Shown: positions 2,480 to 42,526 of the stretch, one piece after another
Layout of the letters: every line of letters begins with the position of its first letter
How positions within the stretch are numbered: the stretch's first letter is position 1
Assembly (NCBI GenBank): GCA_017405965.1
Contig: JAFQZK010000022.1
Location: 185,869-249,868, forward strand
Direction: 5' to 3'
DNA length: 64,000 bases
Origin: Muribaculaceae bacterium
GTDB lineage: Bacteria > Bacteroidota > Bacteroidia > Bacteroidales > Muribaculaceae
The notes under the pieces: model-generated
Database searches by the model: none
What the model was told of the DNA's origin: nothing
Seen by the model: only the letters and a program-made list of their open reading frames with translations
Translations under genes and position numbers: made by a program

Positions 2480-3039
2480 CCCCAAAGTACTATTCATCCT
2501 CCCGGATGCGTTTTGTTTGCATCAAGGAGGATGAATCCATGTGATTACCGGAGGCCGAGTGCGACAGGCAGCTCTTCTCGTCGTTCAAACCCGATTTTTC
2601 TCTTTTTTCTCCTATTTATTCTGTGCGTGTAGGGCCTCGCCTTGGCGTGGCCGGTAGGTCGTATGCCGATTTATCTTTTTTTTGCGGCATGAACACGCAT
2701 GCAGAGAAAAAGGAGAAAAAAAATAATTTTCTGTTACTCGCCATTGCTGCGGTAGTAAATATTTAATTTCCTTGTGTTAGTACTTGCGATAACACAAGTA
2801 TAATAGATATATATTATTTTTCTCTATTTTATCCTTAACTATATAAAAAGATAAAAAAGAGAAAAATGGTAAAGGAAGAAATTGTCATAGTCGTGGGTCA
2901 ATTACACTTGATAGACGTTTCAGGCCAAGAAAATGTAAACCCGTTTCCATTGTTTTTTTACAAAGGTATCAAAGAATCACCAAACTCCAAGAATTGATGT
3001 TTAATCTGACCTCTCTATAATTAACTCAAAACTAAAAAA

Positions 3040-3070
3040 ACTAGGGACTAGAAACTAGGGACTAGAAACT
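3040..3070. repeat. Short tandem array, 7-bp units
   Basis: Four and a half 7-bp units alternating ACTAGGG and ACTAGAA. The array lies 8 bp before the -7 element of the downstream gene. The ACTAGGG unit recurs in the array at 42480. Confidence 0.85.
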
Positions 3071-3077
3071 ATTTTAC

Positions 3078-3085
3078 TATTTTTG
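3078..3085 (+). promoter_or_regulatory. -7 promoter element very close to the start codon
   Basis: TATTTTTG matches the TAnnTTTG consensus and ends only four bases before the ATG at 3090. Transcription from it would give an almost leaderless mRNA. No TTG sits at the -33 distance because that space is filled by the tandem array. Confidence 0.45.
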
Positions 3086-12080: not shown

Positions 12081-12542
12081 ATGCTTATAATCAATTCTTA
12101 CGAAGAATTTGCCGCCCATCTGGGCGAGGAACTCGGTGCCAGCGAATGGCTCACCGTGGACCAGGACCGTATCAACATGTTTGCCGACGCCACGCTCGAC
12201 CACCAGTGGATTCACGTTGACGTGGAGCGCGCCAAGGCCGAGAGCGCCTATCACAGCACCATCGCCCACGGTTACCTCACCATGTCGCTGATTCCCCACC
12301 TGTGGAACCAGATCATCGAGGTGAACAACCTGGAGATGCAAGTGAACTACGGTATGGACAAGATGCGCTTCGGACAGCCCGTCATCACCGGCAGTCGCGT
12401 GCGCCTGGTGACCAAGTTGGCCAACATCGCCGACCTGCGCGGCATCTGCAAGGCCGAGATCGACTTCAAGATGGAGATCGAAGGCCAGCGCAAGCCCGCT
12501 CTGCAAGGAATCGCCTCATTCCTGTACTATTTCAAGAAATAA
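12081..12542 (+). CDS. MaoC-like dehydratase
   Basis: 153-residue hotdog-fold protein of the MaoC/NodN group, (R)-specific enoyl-CoA hydratase-like. The active-site signature is visible as DATLDHQWIHVD (about 35-46) and STIAHGYLTMSL (about 58-69), giving the Asp-His pair expected for hydration of trans-enoyl thioesters. It lies 19 bp after the permease gene and 1 bp before aroQ, so it is probably co-transcribed. The physiological substrate is unknown. Confidence 0.85.
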   Translation: MLIINSYEEFAAHLGEELGASEWLTVDQDRINMFADATLDHQWIHVDVERAKAESAYHSTIAHGYLTMSLIPHLWNQIIEVNNLEMQVNYGMDKMRFGQPVITGSRVRLVTKLANIADLRGICKAEIDFKMEIEGQRKPALQGIASFLYYFKK

Positions 12543-12543
12543 G

Positions 12544-12969
12544 ATGGTCATCCACATCATCAACGGCCCCAACCTGAACCTCGTGGGTCTGCGCGAGCCC
12601 GAGGTGTATGGCAACCGCTCGCTCGACCAGTACCTGCAGGAACTGATTGAGCAATTCCCGCAACACACGATCGACGTCTATCAGAGCAACATCGAGGGCG
12701 AAATCGTGGACCGCCTGCAGCAGGTGGGCTTCGACGACTGCGGCATCATTCTCAACGCTGGCGGCTACACCCACACGTCGGTCGCCATTGCCGATGCCGT
12801 GGCCGCCATCACCGCACCCGTGGTCGAGGTTCACATCAGCAACATCTACGCGCGTGAACCTTTCCGCCACAAGTCACTGTTGTCTCCCGTCAGCAAGGGC
12901 ATCATCGCCGGCTTCGGCCTCGACAGCTACCGCCTCGCCCTCCTCTCCTTAACCACCAAACAACCATAG
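12544..12969 (+). CDS. aroQ: 3-dehydroquinate dehydratase, type II
   Basis: 141-residue type II dehydroquinase of the shikimate pathway (third step: 3-dehydroquinate to 3-dehydroshikimate). Family landmarks are INGPNLNLVGLREPEVYG near the N-terminus with the lid Arg/Tyr, ILNAGGYTHTSVAI, and EVHISNIYAREPFRHKS with the catalytic His. Length is normal for the dodecameric enzyme. The stop codon is followed after two bases by the left arm of the inverted repeat around the next gene. Confidence 0.95.
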   Translation: MVIHIINGPNLNLVGLREPEVYGNRSLDQYLQELIEQFPQHTIDVYQSNIEGEIVDRLQQVGFDDCGIILNAGGYTHTSVAIADAVAAITAPVVEVHISNIYAREPFRHKSLLSPVSKGIIAGFGLDSYRLALLSLTTKQP

Positions 12970-12971
12970 GT

Positions 12972-13012
12972 TTTTCAAACAACTTGAACAACGTTGAACA
13001 ACAAAAACAACT
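12972..13012. repeat. Left arm of 41-bp inverted repeat flanking the GxxExxY gene
   Basis: Composed of about 10-bp units with the core AACAAC. Its reverse complement matches 13473-13513 at 35 of 41 positions without gaps. It begins two bases after the aroQ stop codon. Confidence 0.8.
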
Positions 13013-13019
13013 TTCTTTT

Positions 13020-13466
13020 ATGATTGACACAATCCGATTAAAAGATCACATCTATGATGTTGTAGGTGCTGTTCAAACAGTTCACAAGGAATTGGGGCCT
13101 GGCCTGAACGAATCTTGCTATCAAGAAGGGTTGCAGATAGAATTCACCCAAAAGAATATACCATTTCAACGGGAAATATCCTTTCATCCGTCTTATCGGG
13201 GAATCAAAATGAAGGCAACATTCCGCTTGGATTTCTTGTGCAAAAACGACATCATTGTTGAATGTAAATCAGTTCCTAAGTTGACAGCCGATCACCGAGC
13301 GCAATTATTCAATTATTTGAGACTGCTCAAGTTGTCCTGTGGAATCTTGGTGAATTTCTTGCCACAGTATGCTGAAATTGAACGTTACTTCTATGATGAA
13401 GAAAGGCAATTGATTGTTCCCGTCAATCACATGGTTAAAGGACGAAAAACAGAATCAAACAATTAA
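13020..13466 (+). CDS. GxxExxY protein (PD-(D/E)XK nuclease-like)
   Basis: 148 residues from the ATG at 13020 (an upstream TTG at 12984 lies inside the repeat arm and is less likely). The family motif GLNESCY follows HKELGPG. A likely PD-(D/E)XK core is visible in RLDFL, then IIVECKS, then a helix with DHRAQLFNYLRLL, so an endonuclease fold is plausible; activity is inferred. Base composition is clearly lower in GC than aroQ and the methyltransferase on either side, and 41-bp inverted repeats bracket the gene. Together these suggest an inserted cassette. Biological role unknown. Confidence 0.85.
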   Translation: MIDTIRLKDHIYDVVGAVQTVHKELGPGLNESCYQEGLQIEFTQKNIPFQREISFHPSYRGIKMKATFRLDFLCKNDIIVECKSVPKLTADHRAQLFNYLRLLKLSCGILVNFLPQYAEIERYFYDEERQLIVPVNHMVKGRKTESNN

Positions 13467-13472
13467 TATAAG

Positions 13473-13513
13473 AGTTGTTTAAGTTGTTTATAGTTGTTCA
13501 TGTTGTTTGAAAA
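13473..13513. repeat. Right arm of 41-bp inverted repeat flanking the GxxExxY gene
   Basis: Units of about 9-10 bp with the core GTTGTT, an inverted match to 12972-13012 (35 of 41). It begins 6 bp after the GxxExxY stop and runs over the first in-frame ATG (13500) of the methyltransferase frame. Confidence 0.8.
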
Positions 13514-13529
13514 AACGTTGCCGGAGATT

Positions 13530-14192
13530 ATGAATGAGGAGTTAGAGGAGTATATTTTGGGGCATATCGATGAGGAGCCGGAGGCGCTGGCGCGCATCGA
13601 CCACGACACCCATGTGCAGAACTACTACTGGCACATGTGCTCGGGACACCTGCAAGGGCGCCTGATCAAGATGCTCACGCGCATGGTGGCACCGCGTCAC
13701 GTGCTGGAGCTAGGCACCTTCAGCGGCTATTCGGCCCTGTGCCTGGCCGAAGGACTGTCCGATGATGACTGCTGCGTCGATACCATCGAGATCAATGACG
13801 AGCAGGAAGACTTCATCCGTGAGCACCTGGCCTTGTCACCCTACGGGAAACGCGTCAACCTCCACATCGGCGACGCCCGCGACATTGTGCCCTCGCTGGG
13901 CAAGCGTTTTGACCTCGTGTTCATCGACGCCAACAAGCGCCAGTATGTCGAGTACTATGACCTGGTGATGGAATACCTCAACCCCGGCGGCTTCATCATC
14001 GCCGACAACACCTTGTGGGCAGGTAAGGTTGTGGACCCCAAGGCGCAACGCGAGGCCCAGACCCGCGGCATCATTGACTTTAACGACCGTGTGAAGGACG
14101 ACCCGCGCGTGGAGAAAGTCATCATCCCCTTGCGTGACGGCCTCACCCTCATCCACAAGAAGCCAATTTCTCAAACATCACCCATAGGATAA
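13530..14192 (+). CDS. Class I SAM-dependent O-methyltransferase (COMT-like)
   Basis: About 220 residues with the Rossmann methyltransferase landmarks: HVLELGTFSGYSALCLAEGL (motif I, SAM loop), a VDTIEIN acidic loop, LVFIDANKRQYVEYYDL with the metal-binding Asp, and PGGFIIADNTLW. It fits the caffeoyl-CoA/catechol O-methyltransferase family. I prefer the ATG at 13530 because GGAG lies 5 bp upstream and homologs usually begin about here. The ATG at 13500 lies inside the inverted repeat, which may have added ten extra codons. The acceptor is unknown. Confidence 0.85.
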   Translation: MNEELEEYILGHIDEEPEALARIDHDTHVQNYYWHMCSGHLQGRLIKMLTRMVAPRHVLELGTFSGYSALCLAEGLSDDDCCVDTIEINDEQEDFIREHLALSPYGKRVNLHIGDARDIVPSLGKRFDLVFIDANKRQYVEYYDLVMEYLNPGGFIIADNTLWAGKVVDPKAQREAQTRGIIDFNDRVKDDPRVEKVIIPLRDGLTLIHKKPISQTSPIG

Positions 14193-14265
14193 GCAGATTA
14201 CCCAAAAACTCACTTCACAACAAAAATTAGAGGCACAAAGCATCGGTCAAGTCCATTTTTTTGAT

Positions 14266-14273
14266 TATTTTTG
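14266..14273 (+). promoter_or_regulatory. -7 promoter element (copy 1)
   Basis: TATTTTTG, 44 bp before the gene at 14318. Repeated exactly at 14859 in the second copy. Confidence 0.5.
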
Positions 14274-14317
14274 CAAATCAGTCAAGAAGTAATCATATAA
14301 ACTAACGTATTCTCATT

Positions 14318-14629
14318 ATGGACCAGTATCAATATCCGAACCAACAGCCCAACGATACGCAAGGTCAGCGTCCCCCGAAGCCTGACAACTATCTCGTCTG
14401 GGCTATCCTGACAACGCTTCTCTGCTGTCTGCCTTTTGGCATAGTATCAATCGTTTATTCTTCCAAGGTTGACACCCTGTACTATGCAGGGGATTACACC
14501 AATGCTCAACAAGCTGCCGACAACGCCAAGAAATGGGCCATGTGGAGTGCTATTGCCTCCTTCATTGTTATTGTACTGGCTCTCGTCGTCGCCTTGATTG
14601 ACGGCATCATGAAAGGCGAATTGTCATAA
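14318..14629 (+). CDS. CD225/dispanin-like small membrane protein, copy 1
   Basis: 103 residues. A Gln/Pro/Asn-rich N-terminus (MDQYQYPNQQPND) precedes a first membrane segment with LVWAILTTLLCCLPFGIVSIVYSSKVD and a second one at about 73-93. The cysteine pair, LPFG and the AQQAADNAKKWA helix between the two segments fit the CD225 family. Function in bacteria is unknown. The gene is near-identical to the one at 14911; the C-terminus differs (FIVIVLALVVALID instead of CAIGVTLYLMF). Confidence 0.75.
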   Translation: MDQYQYPNQQPNDTQGQRPPKPDNYLVWAILTTLLCCLPFGIVSIVYSSKVDTLYYAGDYTNAQQAADNAKKWAMWSAIASFIVIVLALVVALIDGIMKGELS

Positions 14630-14644
14630 GCCGGCATTTTTTCT

Positions 14645-14785
14645 ATGCTCAGCAAGGTTGACAAGTACATGACCTATGCGTTTCCGGTCATCCTGATTCT
14701 CATAGGGTCGTTTTACTACTTTGCCAATCCCAACAGCGGGCATTTCACCCTACAGTGCCCTTGGCGCGTATGTACCGGGACTTGA
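14645..14785 (+). pseudogene. Truncated DUF2752 gene
   Basis: 46 codons similar to the start of the intact gene at 15226 (LSKVDKYMTYAFPVILILIG against FSRVDKIMTYAFPILLVLIG). It keeps the QCPWRVCTGT stretch and then stops, just before the CPxCG motif that defines the family. The break marks one end of the tandem duplication, so this is the remnant of a second copy. Confidence 0.85.
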
Positions 14786-14858
14786 ACCTACCATCAAAAA
14801 AAACACCTCACAGTTAAAAATCGTAGCACAAAGCATCGGTCAAGTCCATTTTTTTGAT

Positions 14859-14866
14859 TATTTTTG
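14859..14866 (+). promoter_or_regulatory. -7 promoter element (copy 2)
   Basis: TATTTTTG, 44 bp before the gene at 14911, identical in position to copy 1. Confidence 0.5.
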
Positions 14867-14910
14867 CAAATCAGTCAAGAAATAATCATATAGATTAACG
14901 TATTCTCATT

Positions 14911-15210
14911 ATGGACCAGTATCAATATCCGAACCAACAGCCCAACGATGCGCAATATCAGCGTCCCCCCAAGCCTGACAACTATCTCGTCTGGGCTATC
15001 CTGACAACGCTTTTCTGCTGTCTGCCTTTTGGCATAGTATCAATCGTTTACTCTTCCAAGGTTGACACCCTGTACTATGCAGGGGATTACACCAACGCTC
15101 AACAAGCTGCCGACAAAGCCAAGAAATGGGCCATGTGGAGTGCTATTGCCTGTGCCATCGGCGTTACTCTGTATCTTATGTTTATACTGATTCTCGCTGC
15201 AACAAAATAA
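14911..15210 (+). CDS. CD225/dispanin-like small membrane protein, copy 2
   Basis: 99 residues, nearly identical to the 14318 gene through residue 80, then a different last membrane segment. The DUF2752 gene follows after 15 bp, so the two are co-transcribed. CD225-like and DUF2752 proteins often sit together in Bacteroidota, which hints at a joint membrane function, but none is established here. Confidence 0.75.
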   Translation: MDQYQYPNQQPNDAQYQRPPKPDNYLVWAILTTLFCCLPFGIVSIVYSSKVDTLYYAGDYTNAQQAADKAKKWAMWSAIACAIGVTLYLMFILILAATK

Positions 15211-15225
15211 CCCGACTGTAGTTTC

Positions 15226-15615
15226 ATGTTCAGCAGAGTTGACAAGATAATGACTTATGCCTTCCCGATTCTTCTGGTACTCATAGGTCTATTCTATTAC
15301 TTTGCCAATCCCGACACCCAGCATTTCCCCATACAGTGTCCGTGGCGCTTGTGCACGGGCACTTTGTGTCCTGCATGTGGTTTTCAGCGTGCCCTTCATG
15401 CACTCATCCACGGCGATATCGGCCAAGCCCTGAGCTACAACTATTTCTTTGTCCTCTCCATCCCCTATGCCCTCGCTGCAGTACTAGTGAGTTGGTACAA
15501 CTTCGGTCATCGTCTCGACGGCCTCAAGCGCATCGTTTTTCATCCCGCCGTCCTCAAGGCCTATGTCTTTCTCTTCATCGCCTGGTGGATAGCCCGCAAC
15601 TTGCTCAATCTATAA
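15226..15615 (+). CDS. DUF2752 membrane protein
   Basis: 129 residues with membrane segments at about 12-28, 68-88 and 105-122. The DUF2752 signature CPACGFQRA (48-56) follows the first segment, with a further Cys pair (QCPWRLC) just before it. The cysteines suggest metal binding or redox, but the function of the family is unknown. Ends at a strong bidirectional terminator. Confidence 0.85.
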   Translation: MFSRVDKIMTYAFPILLVLIGLFYYFANPDTQHFPIQCPWRLCTGTLCPACGFQRALHALIHGDIGQALSYNYFFVLSIPYALAAVLVSWYNFGHRLDGLKRIVFHPAVLKAYVFLFIAWWIARNLLNL

Positions 15616-40061: not shown

Positions 40062-40156
40062 ATAATGATTTTTCAATTTTCATCATAACCATGCATATTT
40101 TCCATAAATCCAAAAGAAAAACGAAAAAGTGCCAAAAAATCAGATAGAACAACCCT

Positions 40157-40266
40157 GTTCGTTCGTCCGTTCATTCATGCATGCGTGAGAAAGTGAGAAA
40201 CAAGTCAGATTTATATTGCCATCACACACCCATCTGTACGAACGGATGAACGAACAAGCGAATGAA
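40157..40266. repeat. Tetranucleotide-period repeats (GTTC/GAAC)
   Basis: 40157-40188 runs in 4-base steps (GTTC GTTC GTCC GTTC ATTC ATGC). 40235-40266 carries the inverted version (GAAC GGAT GAAC GAAC). Together with 40341-40400 they form a cluster of related palindromic repeats in a 480-bp gene-free region. Confidence 0.6.
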
Positions 40267-40340
40267 AACCGATGTGTTGAGAGAGATTATATATGACTAG
40301 AATAGGTTTGTGTCAAAACTTACGATGACACAACCTTTCT

Positions 40341-40400
40341 ATCCGTTCATCCGTTCGTTCATATTTATATATATAATAGCGAACGAACGGATGAACGGAT
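40341..40400. repeat. Perfect 20-bp inverted repeat with AT spacer
   Basis: ATCCGTTCATCCGTTCGTTC (40341-40360), a 20-base A/T-rich spacer, then the exact inverse (40381-40400). It would form a long hairpin or cruciform about 70 bp downstream of tRNA-Phe. Confidence 0.8.
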
Positions 40401-40420
40401 GAAAAGGCCTGCAATACTTA

Positions 40421-42394: not shown

Positions 42395-42479
42395 AATCTT
42401 GCCTCTCATATCTCAAAAAATTAGCGCTTTTGCATCCATGGTTACTGAAAAAGCAGTAAATTCGCTCGTTAAATCAAAA

Positions 42480-42522
42480 CTAAGGACTAAGGACTAAGGA
42501 CTAAGGACTAAGGACTAGGGAC
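42480..42522. repeat. Heptamer array (TAAGGAC)5 TAGGGAC
   Basis: Five perfect 7-bp units plus one variant directly before the DUF2851 start codon (last unit ends 4 bp before ATG 42527). It includes the purine-rich stretch where a ribosome-binding site would lie. Same unit family as the array at 3040. Confidence 0.95.
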
Positions 42523-42526
42523 TGAG

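Follow-up and report, generated by a model that had tools for sequence, protein, structure and literature searches.

Short genes between inverted tandem-repeat arrays look like an undescribed kind of transposase-less mobile element

Between aroQ and an O-methyltransferase gene of a Muribaculaceae bacterium, a short gene of the GxxExxY family stands between two inverted arrays of short tandem repeats, and the locus raises the question of whether the gene and the arrays belong together and move as a cassette that encodes no transposase, as the original prediction made from the same DNA proposed. The gene family is an ordinary one; the setting is extraordinary. The features of the locus are listed here by their positions in the window, that is, the whole 64,000-nt stretch that was analysed (contig JAFQZK010000022.1, positions 185,869 to 249,868).

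12544..12969, + strand: aroQ (type II dehydroquinase), the upstream neighbour; from ORF and profile matches
12971..13012, + strand: left arm, AACAAC units repeated about every 9-10 bp (TTTTTCAAACAACTTGAACAACGTTGAACAACAAAAACAACT); from inverted-repeat search, Tandem Repeats Finder and alignment
13020..13466, + strand: GxxExxY gene, PD-(D/E)XK superfamily (PF13366, TIGR04256), 148 aa; from ORF and profile matches
13473..13514, + strand: right arm, the same array in inverted orientation (GTTGTT units); from inverted-repeat search, Tandem Repeats Finder and alignment
13530..14192, + strand: O-methyltransferase gene (PF01596), the downstream neighbour, its start at 13530 having a counterpart in most relatives; from ORF, profile match and relatives

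The left arm begins directly 3′ of the aroQ stop codon. The inverted-repeat search gave arms of 42 nt each, 86% complementary and 460 nt apart, and this pair ranked first of the 16 inverted repeats with a spacing of up to 1500 nt in the whole window. Ungapped alignment of one arm with the other matched at 36 of 42 positions, which corresponds to the 35 of 41 given in the original prediction, and the tandem units of about 10 bp described there were recovered by Tandem Repeats Finder as a period of 9-10 in both arms. For comparison between genes, a flank score was used, obtained by local alignment of the sequence upstream of each gene with the reverse complement of that downstream, and a gene with a score of at least 30 was counted as bracketed. 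The window gene scored 57, which none of 1000 dinucleotide shuffles reached (mean 17.9, maximum 32) and which was the second-highest value among the 330 ORFs scored across 464 kb of this genome. Between the arms there is a single ORF of at least 50 aa, which has a match to PF13366 and a weak one to Cas4. Its AT-richness relative to both neighbours, also part of the prediction, was borne out by GC contents of 38.9% for the gene, 60.1% for aroQ and 57.8% for the methyltransferase gene. The Rfam search of positions 12500-14300 returned a single match with an E value of 0.32, far under the gathering score.

The right arm does overlap the first ATG of the methyltransferase frame (13500), as had been noted, but the accompanying suggestion that the insertion supplied a new 5′ end is not supported for the window. 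The insertion need not have supplied this start, because the further in-frame ATG at 13530 (ATGAATGAGGAG...) has a counterpart, judged by eye, in 13 of the 18 gene-bearing loci at the aroQ site. In five relatives (L021, L025, L030, L032 and L037), the methyltransferase start seems by eye to lie inside the arm or an arm remnant, and there the insertion may have provided it. Farther downstream in the window (14204-15364), a gene for a CD225-domain membrane protein is duplicated in tandem together with its upstream region (93%, 300 nt).

The assignment of the window protein to the GxxExxY family stands, with 123.6 bits for TIGR04256 (cut-off 35) and 114.2 bits for PF13366 (cut-off 22). Among 79 aligned GxxExxY proteins, G28, E31, Y34, D71, E81 and Q95 occur in all 79, K83 in 78 and Y99 in 77, and the window protein carries all eight residues. 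The conserved D, ExK and QxxxY, which we take to be the motif of the RecB/Cas4 type, read in this alignment as a complete nuclease site of that type. Matches to Cas4 itself are weak (E value 9.7e-4 in Pfam and 3.1e-4 in PADLOC; 11 of the 79 aligned proteins at E ≤0.01), and the window protein lies under the Pfam Cas4 cut-off (19.7 against 22.7 bits). A defence role was rejected as a candidate, the weak Cas4 match, obtained for two of the four proteins searched, being the sole outcome in PADLOC. Solved structures searched by sequence for a GxxExxY relative gave a best E value of 0.34, to an unrelated protein. A search of phages with one GxxExxY protein (L002) found no match, and a pattern-based scan of viral contigs found four confirmed relatives, so there is little sign of viral cargo. 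The name GxxExxY appears in the accessible text of PMC8934634 and PMC12085832, in one of them as a label beside an RT gene.

Arms of this kind were found at other GxxExxY genes; the bracketing is specific to the family and no coincidence. Scores of at least 30 were reached by 30 of 33 PF13366 loci against 0 of 53 neighbouring ORFs and, in a second family, IVP (PF05635), by 23 of 30 loci against 0 of 46; short or cut loci were excluded, which left 33 of 36 PF13366 and 30 of 33 PF05635 loci for this comparison. IVP is a four-helix protein unrelated to GxxExxY that occurs in the same type of bracket and matches the solved chains 2gsc (XCC0516) and 2rld in a sequence search. The window genome contains seven PF13366 matches, and five of its 330 ORFs (464 kb) exceed a score of 35, namely the window gene, two four-helix IVP genes and two others, one of which is placed between two gene-less hairpins. 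A larger genus set of 120 loci, sampled from the listed matches (60 taken in list order with omissions, plus others), included six loci without the gene; the other 114 gave 115 genes or pieces, 114 of them with both flanks, and 101 of these 114 were bracketed (98 of 111 distinct proteins, three proteins occurring twice). Several of the 13 misses are fragments or have wrong starts (L021, L025 twice, L048, L146) and were kept as misses, and the 101 rows merge to 100 loci lying at 40 sites, many of them orthologous.

Among the best 80 GTDB matches, a sample that for this very reason leans to close relatives, 57 of 75 loci reached at least 30 and 18 did not (49 of 66 reached it without nine proteins repeating the genus set); five loci with cut flanks were dropped, including L231, L242 and L256 from outside Bacteroidota. 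The same threshold was reached by 12 of 202 neighbouring ORFs and by 271 of 5550 cross-locus pairs taken from these 80 matches, and the direct orientation also reached it in 17 of the 75 loci and in 18 of the 114 genus loci. Bracketed loci among these best 80 matches include Verrucomicrobia, Spirochaetes, Planctomycetes, Neomarinimicrobiota, Lentisphaeria and Nevskia, and six further loci outside Bacteroidota (L222, L250, L252, L253, L258 and L262) scored below 30. In the Nevskia locus L263 (2420-2920), a 46-bp inverted repeat with one mismatch extends into the 3′-terminal codons of the gene upstream. For IVP in the wider phylum, the feature was weaker (13 of 29 loci, controls 2 of 41), and one of two GxxExxY loci on plasmids was bracketed (L334, score 45; L333, 22). 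When the other ORFs of the loci were scanned, 48 of the 59 bracketed ORFs listed proved by eye to be GxxExxY or four-helix genes, in loci mostly chosen for such genes, and the remaining 11 belong to the host; several of these adjoin arrays of this kind or lie between them. The controls used were thus neighbouring ORFs, the 330-ORF background, the direct orientation and the GTDB cross-locus pairs; another cross-locus control was discarded, since orthologous sites share arms. We regard the bracket as almost certainly a real, family-specific feature. Additionally, two loci of the window genome (L014 and L015) encode a longer four-helix family of 186-190 aa with weak PF05635 matches, bracketed by CTCGGAGAT and GTCCGACCTT arrays, which may represent a third type of protein encoded by such elements.

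The arms differ between the two families in period. Self-matching of GxxExxY arms peaked at lag 9 (z 16.8 in the genus set and 22.4 in the set of best 80 GTDB matches), with a weaker signal at 10, and that of IVP arms at lags 7 (z 35.7) and 14 (z 28.8), the period of 7 being given for the wider-phylum set too. The array units themselves are diverse (GAATTACAC, CGCTAAG, GATTAATCT, AACAAC, AAGACAAGA and CACAGAGA). For 4719 pairs of GxxExxY loci scoring at least 30, located at different sites and with no flanking gene in common, arm similarity correlated with protein similarity (r 0.58), a value reached by none of 1000 permutations in a test that ignores relatedness. Arm similarity was at least 0.5 in 72% of pairs with protein similarity of at least 0.7 and in 0-1% of those with protein similarity below 0.4. 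The same pairing is visible at one site: the gene is present at the aroQ site in 18 of 24 close relatives (in L025 as two pieces), with arms of the AACAAC type in eight, of AAGACAAGA in five, of GACAAC in four and mixed in one, and by eye the three types pair with three protein groups. Fewer mismatches between left and right arms at positions that recur inside an arm were also considered and set aside as confounded, a decayed base being both unrepeated and mismatched.

The likeness of the two arms could be a mutational one without function if they arose from templated inverted duplication during DNA repair near AT-rich genes. Arrays do gain or lose units, as in L330 and L335, the left arms of which differ by 14 bases in this way, and the Nevskia repeat mentioned above, running into coding sequence, would also suit such an origin. 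Concentration on two protein families, with family-specific periods and in several phyla, makes it very improbable.

Several lines of evidence bear on movement. Two elements at separate sites of the window genome, L005 and L006, align at 74.6% identity along 500 bp that include the left arm and most of the gene; their outer flanks are unlike, and the right arms, beyond the aligned 500 bp, look alike. No very recent copy was seen, since the best pair of different loci reaches just 83.7% identity. Gene-less hairpins number 16 in 464 kb of this genome, outnumbering gene-bearing copies there, and for 12 of the 16 the match to a gene-bearing element of this genome exceeds that of 100 shuffles, in a test that sets a pair of observed arms against shuffles of a single arm and so slightly favours the observed value; the hairpin at L121 near 4860 matches the window element. 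A 79-bp gene-less family has 70 matches in the genome, both strands counted. These hairpins have the properties by which MITEs are recognised, being non-coding and multi-copy, with inverted repeat ends that are common with a coding element. The window also holds a pair of gene-less inverted arrays with an 8-bp unit (ATCCGTTC / GAACGGAT) at 40130-40410, with a second pair close by, and the arms of the eleven resident elements L001-L011 gave no match to the arrays at 40130-40410. Solo heptamer arrays (ACTAAGG; AAACTAGGGACTAG) at 42479-42523 and 3038-3083 of the window, alongside which no IVP gene was noticed, are of the type that brackets IVP genes in the same genome.

The occupancy of individual sites turns over as well. 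One intergenic gap, compared by eye in 30 loci with the same upstream gene, is occupied by a GxxExxY element in nine loci (two arm types; L360 included), by a hairpin of a single gene-less type in seven, by one of a heptamer type in another seven, and by some other remnant or hairpin in five; it is empty in two. At the murQ site, the element is present in the window genome and absent from its nearest relative, in which the murQ fragment is 99% identical; the anchor of this site is present in 9 of 30 loci, and the gene in one of the nine. At the aroQ site, L040 is near-empty and L033 has a different neighbour. Arrays or a hairpin scar without the gene, which the original prediction had linked, together with a lack of arms at other GxxExxY genes, to a coincidental bracket, are indeed kept there by four relatives (L019, L026, L036 and L039), and we read these as decayed or gene-less elements. 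A target duplication was sought for GxxExxY at the serine-dehydratase and murQ sites, and none was obtained, the empty-site flanks being too diverged. The left arm starts at most 40 nt from the near end of the upstream ORF, on either strand, in 78 of 100 loci, a count made without a control.

A clean empty site was found for the related IVP element. Nine of nine IVP genes examined on cyanobacterial plasmids, out of 29 plasmid records matching, lie between inverted heptamer arrays with scores of 38-63. One such element is present in Trichormus variabilis plasmid C and in a Scytonema plasmid and absent from four plasmids that are 97.3-97.8% identical. The empty site reads AAAAAGTAATTAACAAATAA and the occupied one AAAAAGTAA-element-GTAATTAACAAATAA, in which GTAA is a 4-bp duplication; when the element and one GTAA are taken out, all 50 bases compared agree with the empty plasmid L337. 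The target is the stop codon of the upstream gene, which is preserved. A second site (L331 versus L349) has TCTA repeated, with one base missing at the join; at sites B, C and 2 no clean junction was obtained. Related IVP copies occur at other sites, and gene-less two-arm versions exist (L413). Taken together, the association of arm and protein types across sites, the derivatives without a gene, the variable occupancy of individual sites and this empty site speak for the transposase-less mobile cassette that had been proposed. We consider the GxxExxY and IVP cassettes very probably mobile; for GxxExxY in particular, the comparison of loci suggests mobility.

These observations also bear on the reading of the arrays as host regulatory or protein-binding sites, such as a GxxExxY operator or terminators, around genes that are ordinary residents, with nothing moving. 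The arms do lie at promoter or terminator distance and might serve as binding sites through which the encoded protein represses its own gene, and, according to the accessible text of PMC4679880, the 7-bp direct TAACTGA arrays of Beggiatoaceae lie mostly upstream of start codons and are possibly regulatory. With the arms inverted and on both sides of the gene, an empty site with a target duplication, turnover at the same sites and gene-less copies elsewhere, a purely regulatory role is quite improbable.

Two plasmid loci deserve separate mention. In L345 (1349-1588), an IVP reading frame stops prematurely at the start of another array of the same AGTCAG type, a layout that resembles insertion of an element into the gene. 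On two cyanobacterial plasmids (L326 1501-1869 and L328 1504-1863), cas6 and cas4 are separated by an IVP gene that has heptamer arms. The 23S rRNA IVP is named in a figure legend on adaptation-module associations in a CRISPR survey, in the part available of PMC10910872; because armed IVP elements sit between cas6 and cas4, insertion may explain part of this association, and the reported link would need rechecking.

A further explanation takes the element as an IVS-like RNA, the arms of which pair in the transcript, so that RNase III cuts the insert out and any movement proceeds via RNA. IVP belongs to the 23S rRNA IVS protein family, and the Coxiella IVS is processed by RNase III in vitro, as stated in the accessible part of PMC4990558. 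The window element folds with a z of -3.23 (1 of 100 shuffles equally good), its arms pairing, and mismatches in IVP arms lean, without significance, towards G-U (30 versus 18 A-C, p 0.11). Sense-strand mismatches in GxxExxY arms have no excess of G-U over A-C (111 versus 101 in the genus set; 43 versus 63 among the best 80 GTDB matches), the copies examined sit between protein genes, and nucleases of the PD-(D/E)XK superfamily mostly act on DNA, all of which renders the RNA route unlikely.

We return to movement at the DNA level, for which the following mechanism may be envisaged. The inverted short-motif arrays would be terminal recognition sites to which the encoded protein is matched; GxxExxY, as a RecB/Cas4-like nuclease, would bind the repeated motif in both arms and cut at or near the ends, its cutting being deduced from the active-site residues. 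Insertion would take place between genes, often just 3′ of a stop codon, where little damage would result, and strand joining would presumably be left to a host function. Gene-less hairpins with the same arms would be non-autonomous copies moved in trans, and IVP genes with their 7-bp arrays a parallel version, independently encoded. To our knowledge, a lone PD-(D/E)XK nuclease has no strand-joining activity, and we know of no nuclease or other catalytic domain in IVP, so a single mechanism for both families is not obvious.

That gene and two arms form one mobile element of about 0.5 kb, the ends of which are read by its own matched protein, a probable nuclease cutting there, seems to us rather probable; whether the encoded protein is the enzyme we consider evenly balanced. 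The elements might instead be moved by an unrelated recombinase or transposase encoded elsewhere in the genome, with GxxExxY and IVP as passengers or regulators. Such an arrangement would suit a protein like IVP without a known catalytic domain, gene-less hairpins that outnumber gene-bearing copies in the 464 kb, and the general opinion, found in the available text of PMC2229807, that bacterial MITEs move in trans. A third-party enzyme is not expected to yield such arrays, because their period and sequence track the family and clade of the encoded protein, and we judge its involvement unlikely.

If the mechanism with a matched protein is true, GxxExxY and IVP, two widespread families of unassigned function, would acquire a common role, an origin would be at hand for a large set of so far unexplained short tandem repeats, and a class of mobile elements would end in repeat arrays instead of fixed inverted repeats. 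The rule that the protein family sets the repeat period and the protein clade the repeat sequence is open to direct testing by binding assays. In its widest form, the proposal is of a transposase-less class in which a small protein reads its own array (9-bp for GxxExxY, 7-bp for IVP), gene-less arrays, including the heptamers of cyanobacteria and Xanthomonas, are moved or relict ends, and the 23S rRNA IVSs are a special case that landed in rRNA; we put this forward tentatively, at slightly less than even chances.

No description of the array bracket was found in the literature searched, which mostly excluded subscription journals and bioRxiv, and the bracketed genes look like an undescribed kind of transposase-less mobile element. 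Among known systems, Cas4/RecB-like nucleases resemble GxxExxY in the weak Cas4 matches and the conserved D, ExK and QxxxY; the window protein differs in falling below the Pfam cut-off and in having aroQ and a methyltransferase gene as neighbours. RAYTs are HUH Y1 transposases associated with GTAG palindromes, and REP/RAYT systems likewise consist of a single gene between inverted short repeats that recur without the gene, whereas GxxExxY is of the PD-(D/E)XK type, IVP is a four-helix bundle, and the window protein had no Y1 HUH match in Pfam. Insertion sequences and MITEs share with the present elements terminal inverted repeats, gene-bearing and gene-less members and, in one IVP case, a short target duplication; there is no transposase in the window element, the only sizeable ORF of which matches PF13366, and the ends here are iterated 7- or 9-bp motifs. 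The MITEs treated in the accessible parts of PMC4596501 and PMC2229807 are of other kinds.

The heptameric short tandem repeats called STRRs are similar 7-bp intergenic arrays to those around the cyanobacterial plasmid IVP genes, and we infer that the arrays of cyanobacteria and Xanthomonas are of the same kind. The accessible text of PMC4692102 describes such arrays between genes in Xanthomonas and Nostoc (GGGAATC, GGGGATT), with an unsettled role and without a mobile gene; in Xanthomonas they often form convergent pairs (70 and 75 cases), and loci near them are reported to be more stable. According to the same text, few of the repeats in Nostoc PCC 7120 are paired, none are on plasmids, and there is generally no association with mobile elements. 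The IVP arrays differ in lying on plasmids and in pairs, and extension of the proposal to the Xanthomonas and Nostoc repeats is weakened by the raised stability, the few Nostoc PCC 7120 pairs and their absence from plasmids. The 23S rRNA IVSs with an IVP/S23 ORF (PF05635) are also small, with one ORF and stem-forming terminal inverted repeats; that of Coxiella, as given in the available part of PMC4990558, measures 428 nt, contains an S23 ORF and has a terminal stem of 28 bp, and IVSs have already been suggested there to be mobile. The window element differs from them in that its ORF matches PF13366 and not PF05635, that it lies between aroQ and an O-methyltransferase gene, outside any 23S rRNA helix, and that its ends are short-tandem arrays.
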